From Pelagophyceae sp. CCMP2097 (lineage: Eukaryota; Sar; Pelagophyceae), in contig MU657182.1 of NCBI GenBank assembly GCA_026770575.1, forward strand, positions 229,034-293,033: a stretch of 64,000 nucleotides of DNA. Direction: 5' to 3'. Shown in pieces: positions 52,851 to 56,509 of the stretch. Below the pieces are notes generated by a model that made no database searches, was not told the origin of the DNA, and saw only the letters and a program-made list of their open reading frames with translations. The position numbers were made by a program, and so were the translations under genes. Position 1 is the stretch's first letter; each line of letters begins with the position of its first letter.

Positions 52851-53290
52851 GGGGGGGTCCGGGGGGTCTCCCCCCGGCACCCGCGAGAGTCCGGGGTCGG
52901 CGGACGGGCCTTTGCCACTGGGGTCGTCGCCGCGTGGCAGTAGGGAACTTCAGCCACTGGGGTCGTCGCCACGAAGCAGTAGTACCAGGGACAACGCAAC
53001 GAGGACAACGCTTTGAGCCGGTCGCGGCGCGCGCGCAACGGACGTTTTGAGCCGGTCGCGGCGCGAGCGCAACGGACGCCGCCCGAGGAGCGGAGCGACG
53101 AGGACAACGCGACGAGGACAACACGACGAGAGGGGGGGGTCCGGGGGGTCTCCCCCCGGCACCGCGAGAGACAGTCCGGGGCCGGCGGACGGGCCTTCGC
53201 CACTGGGGTCGTCGCCGCGGGGCAGTAGTACTAGGGACAACGCGACGAGGACAACGCTTTGAGCCGGTCGCGGCGCGCGCGCAACGGACG
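52851..53290. repeat. Nested GC-rich duplications
   Basis: Two long units (52851-53044 and 53133-53290) share GGGGTCCGGGGGGTCTCCCC, GCCACTGGGGTCGTCGCC and TTTGAGCCGGTCGCGGCGCG. Within the first unit the CACTGGGGTCGTCGCC box and the GAGCCGGTCGCGG box are themselves duplicated. The 51202-53586 spacer contains no supported gene. Confidence 0.75.
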
Positions 53291-53586
53291 CCACCCAAGT
53301 CGTGACGCCACAAGTCCGAGTGGCATCGCGATCGCAGCCCATCAAACGGTCCGTCCCGGACAAAAATTACAACCAGCCCGTCCCGGACGGAGATTCTAAA
53401 CACCTTCCATCGCCCGTCGCGCCCTCCACGGGACCCCTCCGAACTGACTACCCTCGCCCACGACCGACCTACCCTCGCCCACGACCTCATCGAATCCCTC
53501 TTATACACCAGCTCCGAAGCCCGGCGACCCCTATTTGTAGGAATTCTCAAGTTGGAAAGAAGTCATCCAACGTGGCGAGAACCGTC

Positions 53587-56509
53587 ATGGCGCCCGCTGC
53601 CTTCGCGGCCCCGACGGACGAGATGCGCGCCTTCAACGCGATGGGCGCCAGCTCGTGCGTCGGGCAGTCGGCGAAGCTGGACTTCATCGTGCGCGACCGC
53701 GCCCCCACTACGGCAAAAGCCCCCCCGCGGCGATGCGCTGCCAGTGGCCGCGGCGAAACCGGAGCGTCTAAGAGGTTGCGTCGAGGAGCGCGTGCCGAGG
53801 CGCAGCGTAGGCTCGCCTCGGCGGGTGCATCGCCATTGGCTACGTGCCTTTGATGGTCCTCTTCAAGGCCTCCGTGGTGAACGTCGGAGACAACCCCGAC
53901 CACGCCCAGGCGAGTCGCAAAAGAGGTTGCGGCCGTCGAAATGGGAAGTGTAGGTGGTTTTGATCACAGCAACGATCTTCGGCGCCTTTACCTTTCACAG
54001 CGTCACCTCGCTCTCGCGCTGGGACGTCTTCCGCCAATCCAAGGCCCCGGAGGACGACGTCAAGCGCATCGCCGTCTCCGGCGCGAGGCAGGCGGATTTG
54101 GCCATTTTGATCGTCTCGGTGGTCTCGTTTGTCGGGTTTCTTTCCCATTTGTCAATGGCTCTGGCCAAGATGCCCGTCGCGAATTCCGGCTTCGGCCGCC
54201 GCCAGCACGCCGCACGGTGGGCAGAGTGGTGCACGGCCGTGCCGCTCCTGATGCTGCTCATGCGCATGTTCGACGACGCCGTGCGTGTTTTATCGTTTGT
54301 ATCCTTGGCATAGCCCCCAGGGTAGGTGGTGCACGACCAGACGCTGGGCGCGGCGTCGCCGTCGTGGCAGGCTCGGGCGGCGGCCAAGGCTCGGCAAAGG
54401 TTGGCGCCTCCGGGCGGGCCTTTGGTGGTGATGAAGTGGTTCTGGACGGACGAGGCCGCGGCCGGGTGGCGGTCGTTTCTTTCGCTGACGCTGTCCACAT
54501 ACCTCGGCGCCGTCTTCTCGCTGGCGGGGGACCTCTTTCCGTTTTGGTTAAACGCTGTATTACTCGCTGGATCCATAGCACTCTTTTGCCCCATTTTTTT
54601 CAACCTCTGGAGGCAGCTGGAATGGGCGAGGCACGTCCGCGACACGGCCGAGGGCGCCACGCTGGTGGAGCAGATGGGGCACGTCGTGGCTTTAGAAAGG
54701 AGCGAAAGGCGGGTCTCTTTATGCTTCTCCTGCTCGGTGACTTGGTCGTTATTCGCTCTTGTTTACGTCGGCGGCGCGCTCCGCCTCTATTCAGAAAGGG
54801 TCGAGATGACGGCTTTAGACATTTTGGACGTCATGTCCAAAGCTTTATATGCGGCAGCTTTAGGCAAGTCGCACCTCGAGTCGATGTCCCCGGCCAAGAC
54901 TTTGGAAAGGCTCCTCTCTCTCGAACGATTTGCGACGGACCAGCGCCGCGCCTTTCTCAGGTACGTGATGCACGAGGTGCGAGTGCCTCTGAATACGGTG
55001 CATTTGGGTATCCACGCCATTCACGTTGAATTGCAAACCGCAGCGGAGCACAGGCTGCCCGCCCCGGTTTTAGCCACTTTGACCGACGTGGAAGCCATCC
55101 TGGGCGAGGTGAAGCAGTCCGTGACTGTCATGTCGGCGACGTTGGACGACGTGCTCAGTTTCGCGGCAATCGAGGAAGGCCGAATGGATTTAAATTGGGC
55201 GCCGTTTTGTCCCTCGAAGACTTTCCGAGCCGCACTGGACATGTTCGCCGGCGCGGCGGCGGCCAAGGGCATCACTCTCGTTTTAGAGGCGGACCCGGCG
55301 CACGCCGACTTCCTGCGCGGCGATGGGCGAAAATTGGCCGCGGTGGTCCATAATTTCGTCAGCAATGCGATCAAGTTCTCCGCGACCGGAACAACGATCC
55401 TCGTCACCGCCTCAGCAAGGCCGTTGTTTGACCTCTCGCGCGAAAGCTCGAGGCAGTCTACCAAGATTGGGTGCGACGACGATACCGAATCGGGTTTGCC
55501 AAAGTCGGTCCGGCGAGAGAAGCGAGGTTTCGCAGAGGTCTCGCAGTCGACGCGCTCCATCCCGACGCCCCTCGCGCTGGACTCGGAGGAGGAGTCTCAA
55601 GGAGACGCGCTTTGCGCCTTGCTCCGCGTGGAGGTCAAGGACGCCGGAGTTGGCATCAGGGAAGAAGACCAAAAACGTTTATTTACTGCTTTTTCGCAAA
55701 TCCGCCCTGGCGAGCTGCAAGACGGCCGCGGGTCCGGCCTCGGGTTGGCGATTGCGAAGCACGTGGTCCAGCTCCACGGCGGCACGATTGGCTGCCGGTC
55801 TCGCCTCGGGGAAGGGTCCACGTTCTCCTTTTCGGTCGTCTTGAACGTCGCTTCCAGAGCCGACTTTCGAGTCGAGGCTTCTGCGGCGTCGCCCCGGCCA
55901 AACGCGCAGAAGACGGCGCGGTACACGCCCTCTGAAGGGAGCGACGAGGTCTCGGCGTTCTTCGGCGGCAGTGCGCAATCAGAATCTTCTCGACCGCCGT
56001 CGTTTCTGGAATCGAGACCCCCGTCGTTCGAATCTCCGAGACCCGCGTCCTTCGACATCGTGGTGAATAGCGGCAACGTCGCGGCGGCGTCGGGGGCCCG
56101 ACAACGCTTTGCTTTAGTGGCGGATGACGTCCACATCAACCGCAAACTGCTCGCGCGCGTCCTCCAAAAGGAGGGCTTCGACTGCGACCACGCGGACACG
56201 GGCGCCGCGGCGGTGGAGGTGTATAGGCAAGCGGCGGCGAGTGGGAAGGCTTTTGATTTGATTTGTATGGATGCGGTCATGCCCGTGATGGGCGGCTTGG
56301 ACGCTACGAAGATCATCCGAGCCGACGGCTACACCGGTTTATTAGTCGGGTGCACGGGCAACGCCCTCGAAGAGGACATCCGCGACTTTATTGCCGCGGG
56401 CGCGGACCATGTTTTGACCAAGCCCATCTCCATACAAAAGCTCCGCTCTCTCTACAAAGAACGCCGAGCCAAGGACCCTCCGGTGGAGACCCCCGCCCAG
56501 TGTGGATGA
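53587..56509 (+). CDS. Histidine-kinase rhodopsin (rhodopsin - histidine kinase - receiver)
   Basis: Four exons (53587-53688, 53811-53909, 53954-54280, 54326-56509) give 903 residues. Residues about 35-350 form a membrane domain matching microbial rhodopsin. Helix B is VGFLSHLSMALA; helix C RWAEWCTAVPLL aligns with bacteriorhodopsin R82, D85 (here Glu158), W86 and P91. Helix F is TWSLFALVY (W182 kept). Helix G LDVMSK has D344 and K348, the retinal Schiff-base lysine. An added N-terminal helix (IAIGYVPLMVLF) makes eight, as in other enzyme rhodopsins. Then come the H-box RYVMHEVRVPLN (His392), N-box VHNFVSNAIKF, G1 DAGVGIREE, G2 GRGSGLGLAIAK, a Ser/Pro linker, and a receiver with phospho-acceptor LICMDAVMP (Asp825) and TKPI. 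Predicted light-driven phosphorelay sensor. Intron 53910-53953 is GC-AG. Confidence 0.87.

Follow-up and report, generated by a model that had tools for sequence, protein, structure and literature searches.

The window analysed here is a stretch of 64,000 nucleotides (nt) of contig MU657182.1 (positions 229,034 to 293,033) from Pelagophyceae sp. CCMP2097, a stramenopile (ochrophyte) alga. At 53587-56509 on the + strand it carries a gene for a predicted histidine-kinase rhodopsin (HKR), in which a microbial-rhodopsin domain is followed by a bacterial-type histidine kinase and a receiver, an arrangement most familiar from green algae. The four exons of an original prediction, made from the DNA letters without database searches, splice into an open frame of 903 codons plus stop (Table 1). 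All residues to which that prediction had assigned a role (R155, E158, W159, P164, W316, D344, K348, H392 and D825) lie at the claimed numbers in the spliced translation. The gene structure is borne out by a deposited CCMP2097 protein of 903 amino acids (aa) without functional name, 'hypothetical protein M885DRAFT_96678 [Pelagophyceae sp. CCMP2097]' (P0001). It is 100% identical over the searched residues 30-410 and its full sequence is the same; the depositors' gene model is therefore the same model. All three intron acceptors read GTAG. Intron 2 requires a GC donor and alternative splice choices also leave the frame open; the chosen model matches a transcriptome-derived relative, P0002, in length and sequence. 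The GC donor, and the fact that no transcript was seen for the gene, are what would be expected of a gene-model artefact in which wrong splicing joins two neighbouring genes, a rhodopsin fragment and a kinase. Such a chimera is extremely unlikely and was rejected: helices D-G and the kinase share a single unbroken 727-codon frame, and both P0002 and the contig-derived protein P0003 show the same domain order and the same 44-residue spacing between the retinal lysine and the phospho-histidine.

Table 1. Features of the rhodopsin-kinase gene and its surroundings (window coordinates)
Feature	Position	Strand	Content
Exon 1	53587..53688	+	aa 1-34 with the start codon; N-terminal part, predicted to be cytosolic; same as P0001
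Intron 1	53689..53810	+	GT-AG, 122 nt
Exon 2	53811..53909	+	aa 35-67; predicted extra helix TM0 (aa 39-57) and loop; hydropathy, domain model
Intron 2	53910..53953	+	GC-AG, 44 nt
Exon 3	53954..54280	+	aa 68-176; helices A, B, C; R155-x-x-E158-W159, P164
Intron 3	54281..54325	+	GT-AG, 45 nt
Exon 4 (whole)	54326..56509	+	
Exon 4, first part	54326..54880	+	aa 177-361; rhodopsin helices D-G; W316, D344, K348 (retinal lysine)
Linker	54881..54940	+	aa 362-381; helix G to phospho-acceptor helix
Histidine kinase	54941..55849	+	aa 382-684; HisKA (H392), N-box, G1 and G2 boxes, HATPase_c
Receiver domain	56114..56452	+	aa 773-885; D776, D777, D825, K875
Direct repeats	52851..53314		upstream of the rhodopsin-kinase gene
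MRP-L27	56656..57331	-	convergent neighbour, in two pieces

The proposed fusion of rhodopsin, histidine kinase and receiver is backed by profiles, predicted fold and comparison. HATPase_c (76.0 bits) and Response_reg (69.5 bits) are both strong Pfam matches, and the Bac_rhodopsin score is 26.9 bits for a cut-off of 24.6. The kinase lies C-terminal to the rhodopsin and has H, N and G boxes, with the N, G1 and G2 boxes intact. It is followed by the receiver with its phospho-acceptor D825. The retinal lysine, K348, sits in the final helix of the type I rhodopsin domain, 44 residues before H392, and the Pfam scan identified no PAS or HAMP domain between rhodopsin and kinase. The same scan found no cyclase family at E<=1, as would be needed for a 2c-Cyclop, and no phosphodiesterase or cyclase output domain of the kind that defines rhodopsin phosphodiesterases and rhodopsin cyclases. 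The protein stops 18 residues past the receiver match.

The rhodopsin domain was compared with shuffled versions of itself. When a profile was built from eight rhodopsin domains other than this one, it scored the domain at 170.2 bits, while the maximum was 9.7 among full shuffles (485 of 500 reported) and 10.8 among block shuffles (494 of 500). With three distant rhodopsin domains alone the score is 24.1 bits, the highest full-shuffle score being 8.0 (480 of 500 reported) and the highest block-shuffle score 7.0 (469 of 500). The motif that combines helix C and helix G occurred in 4 of 20,000 full shuffles and likewise in 4 of 20,000 block shuffles. The profile scores thus confirm that the match is more than chance. 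Hydropathy gives eight main peaks over aa 39-355 with a minor overlapping peak at 103-121, and two further peaks above threshold inside the kinase. A full-length AlphaFold model (mean pLDDT 60.9) was uninformative on the rhodopsin, only kinase and receiver folds dominating its structure searches; the rhodopsin domain was for this reason folded alone. The resulting domain model contains eight long helices ahead of the kinase helix. The first of these (H2-30 of the model, aa 31-59) lies outside the part aligning with bacteriorhodopsin and coincides with the hydropathy peak at aa 39-57, in agreement with the extra N-terminal helix that had been predicted. A placement of K348 outside a seven-helix bundle had been named as grounds for abandoning the rhodopsin assignment; the modelled bundle that aligns with bacteriorhodopsin has K348 in its final helix. 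It follows from this predicted eight-helix architecture, which in HKRs (type Ib) has both ends in the cytosol, that the kinase would be cytosolic.

The retinal pocket was read from an alignment with a separate pump-like rhodopsin of the same genome (L001:1453-2127, contig C96), in bacteriorhodopsin numbering. The window protein has Arg82, Glu85, Trp86, Ala89, Pro91, Leu96, Trp182, Phe185, Ala186, Tyr189, Asp212 and Lys216. The Phe, Ala and Tyr noted after W316, in place of Y185, P186 and W189, are thus seen in the alignment. Ala at 186 is compatible with the fold at least in bacteriorhodopsin, the P186A crystal structure 1q5i being among the structure matches. The retinal lysine is invariant in 8/8 aligned proteins. 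In Rh-PDE of Salpingoeca rosetta, Glu164 at the D85 position is protonated, Asp292 is the counter-ion and K296 the retinal lysine (PMC7644710). The Glu that had been suggested as a possible cause of a shift in colour is indeed present, but Rh-PDE, another enzyme rhodopsin, has E164 at the same position, so the residue alone does not make an unusual colour likely. As the Glu85/Asp212 pair is that of Rh-PDE, Glu158 alone is no sign of an odd colour and transport is unlikely. The general fold, common to pumps and channels, would also suit a light-driven ion pump or channel to which a kinase is attached and whose main output is ion flux. This is very improbable, and a pump or channel function was rejected on the pocket residues: of the D85, T89 and D96 equivalents of a proton pump the window protein has Glu, Ala and Leu, the last at the donor position; in Rh-PDE, which has the same Glu/Asp pair, the protonated Glu is given as one of the two differences said to preclude transport (PMC7644710); and the pump-like rhodopsin of the genome, which keeps D85, T89 and D96, is a different gene.

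The CCMP2097 assembly (66.2 megabases, 638 contigs) contains two odd relatives with altered parts, which deserve attention. The first, on contig C4 (L037:965-3348), has an intact kinase and receiver; its helix C reads R-W-A-E-R and its helix G E-V-A-S-K, corresponding to Trp86->Arg and Asp212->Glu, and W182 is absent. A presumed GC-AG intron lies directly ahead of its H-box. An H-box pattern search of the assembly returned the window gene and the C4 gene only (the control pattern had zero matches). The second relative, on contig C13 (L002:1096-3318; P0008, M885DRAFT_510654), joins a rhodopsin to a receiver and is also represented in an MMETSP transcriptome source. It has Thr at the D85 position and retains Asp212 and Lys216. 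Its receiver scores 24.3 bits, below the cut-off of 30.2, and its middle region has no HATPase_c match at E<=1 in Pfam and no NCBIfam match. Judged from these profiles, P0008 is a rhodopsin with a degenerate, pseudokinase-like kinase.

Partner genes were also searched for. RPE65-family carotenoid oxygenases, which usually supply retinal, gave three matches on two contigs. A Blh-type oxygenase (PF15461) was not found, but the control likewise matched nothing, which makes this result uninformative. HPt domains gave two matches on two contigs and receiver domains at least 46 (50 of 58 candidates scored).

Between the window and C4 proteins, identity is 57.3% in the kinase half and 34.2% in the rhodopsin half. 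Such faster divergence of the sensor between two paralogues with intact kinases, together with W86R, D212E and the missing W182 of the C4 protein, could indicate that the rhodopsin domain has degenerated into a remnant using neither retinal nor light, in a membrane-anchored kinase that senses something else; Cop5/HKR1 mutants are moreover defective in ammonium chemotaxis (PMC11621555). This is unlikely for the window protein, which keeps the retinal lysine and the equivalents of Asp212, Trp86, Pro91, Arg82 and Trp182, the lysine being common to all aligned proteins and carotenoid oxygenase genes being present in the genome.

Protein-homologue searches, in each of which about 8,000 candidates were scored, retrieved seven proteins with the window protein as query: itself and six relatives. 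Those with P0008 and P0003 returned only the query. No named green-algal HKR was among the matches, an absence that means little with that number of candidates. P0002 and P0003, which have no function name, carry the same domains in the same order, with the motif FLRYVMHEVRVPLN and a Lys-to-His spacing of 44; over the searched part they are 40% and 31% identical to the window protein. P0003 is from an assembled contig and P0002 from transcriptome MMETSP0977, under the taxid of CCMP2097. No gene nearly identical to P0002 turned up in the CCMP2097 assembly, where the best matches reach 41-52% identity; an assembly gap or contamination could account for this. Three further relatives (P0004, P0005 and P0006) are kinases sharing the H-box motif, with an N-terminal multi-helix part that Pfam does not call rhodopsin. 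This part keeps Trp86, Pro91 and the Lys, with Asn or Ser replacing Asp212. Their profile has weak matches to channelrhodopsins and further microbial rhodopsins (best E 0.0097) and aligns to the window group with an hhalign probability of 90% over 58 columns. A scan of prokaryote genomes yielded 34 pattern matches and one relative, through its ATPase part only, in a proteobacterial metagenome-assembled genome. A viral origin was discarded after an IMG/VR scan with a three-relative profile (20 pattern matches, zero relatives).

Taken together, the sequence and the models make it very probable that the window protein is an HKR, namely a retinal photoreceptor with eight helices that is wired directly to a hybrid histidine kinase. 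It displays the predicted Schiff-base Lys348, the candidate counter-ions Glu158 and Asp344, a modelled extra N-terminal helix, the His392 kinase and the Asp825 receiver. Several points weigh against this reading. HisKA scores 19.8 bits, below its Pfam cut-off of 26.9; the H-box is standard nonetheless. The domain model, built with 8 sequences, is of modest confidence (mean pLDDT 63.1, no residue >=90). Foldseek returned no match to it at E<=0.001, and G-protein-coupled receptors are among the weaker rows; the best match, above that threshold, is Rh-PDE. The 90% cluster of the window protein has one member, from NCBI/nr only, with no transcript seen. The HPt and receiver proteins of the genome are candidate partners only, and the likeness to green-algal HKRs is drawn from published descriptions.

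If the protein is an HKR, retinal from the cell's carotenoid oxygenases would bind Lys348, Asp344 would act as the working counter-ion, and Glu158 may be protonated as in Rh-PDE. Pumping would not be expected because the D96 position is Leu. Light may shift helix G. Through a short uninterrupted helix this movement would reach the dimer of the kinase and change how His392 is phosphorylated and how phosphate is transferred to Asp825. The phosphate would then pass to a separate HPt protein and on to a response regulator, since the searches of the protein showed no cyclase and no DNA-binding output. For the sign of the light effect there is a slight lean, of little weight, towards inhibition of the kinase by analogy with Chlamydomonas Cop6/2c-Cyclop.

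The convergent neighbour of the gene encodes mitochondrial ribosomal protein L27 (MRP-L27); one of its two pieces is above the Pfam cut-off (36.9 bits) and the other below (16.2 bits). Among the upstream direct repeats, three families have two copies each (92, 59 and 31 nt long), which are 95, 93 and 100% alike and spaced by 246, 285 and 282 nt; an additional, looser family of 61 nt has three copies.

The listings of open-access papers and the passages covered gave no description of an HKR from a pelagophyte or other ochrophyte. The introduction of PMC7644710 exemplifies the holders of enzyme rhodopsins as 'fungi, green algae, and choanoflagellates'. PMC5795050 deals with Hyphochytrium, whose three type I rhodopsins it calls the first from a stramenopile, with no kinase fusion mentioned in the available text. 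PMC12480563 used the CCMP2097 genome, and the rhodopsin tree in its available part covers Phaeocystis only. PMC13150293 names an Ostreococcus rhodopsin kinase. PMC2410131, on the Heterosigma plastid, was set aside, its available text being unrelated to rhodopsin kinases. An MMETSP survey includes a cluster of likely sensory rhodopsins from diverse taxa (PMC5785536); HKRs such as these may for that reason sit unremarked in bulk trees. By domain order the window protein is an HKR without cyclase, in a lineage where HKRs seem undescribed. Pelagophytes and other organisms might possibly have a separate branch of HKRs that are compact and lack an output, which would include P0004-P0006 and in which the shaft from retinal helix to kinase is fixed at 44 or 41 residues. 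In this tentative scheme E/W/D, E/R/E and T/W/D (at D85/W86/D212) would be a CCMP2097 colour set, and the third, kinase-less protein a light-controlled receiver or a dimer partner.

Should it bind retinal, the window protein would place a histidine kinase under the control of light in only 903 aa, and its signal could leave by an ordinary phosphorelay. Reconstruction in bacteria would probably be simpler than for the green-algal protein of 2,549 aa. How the helix of a rhodopsin drives the dimer of a kinase was left to future structural studies in 2019 (PMC6798134); the paralogue without a kinase and the constant distance between Lys and His allow this question to be tested directly.

Enzyme rhodopsins of known type resemble the window protein in part. 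Green-algal HKRs (Cop5/HKR1, Ot-HKR and Cop6/2c-Cyclop1) are alike in having an N-terminal rhodopsin followed directly by the kinase and then the receiver; their eight transmembrane helices match the number predicted for the window protein (PMC6284317, PMC11621555). The assignment to a Cop5/HKR type therefore stands for the rhodopsin-kinase-receiver part and fails for the cyclase domain, none having been found. Cr2c-Cyclop1 is 2549 aa long, whereas the window protein has 903, and its retinal Lys and phospho-His (K298, H352) are 54 residues apart rather than 44 (PMC6284317). A heptad-phase interpretation of the 44, 41 and 54 spacings was dropped, these numbers having no common phase. The green-algal relatives measured are light-inhibited (PMC6284317). 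Rh-PDE shares with the window protein the Glu at D85 and the Asp at D212, and its eight transmembrane helices including TM0 correspond to those predicted for the window protein (PMC7644710). However, its enzyme is a phosphodiesterase placed after a 76-residue linker, while that of the window protein is a histidine kinase after a short one.
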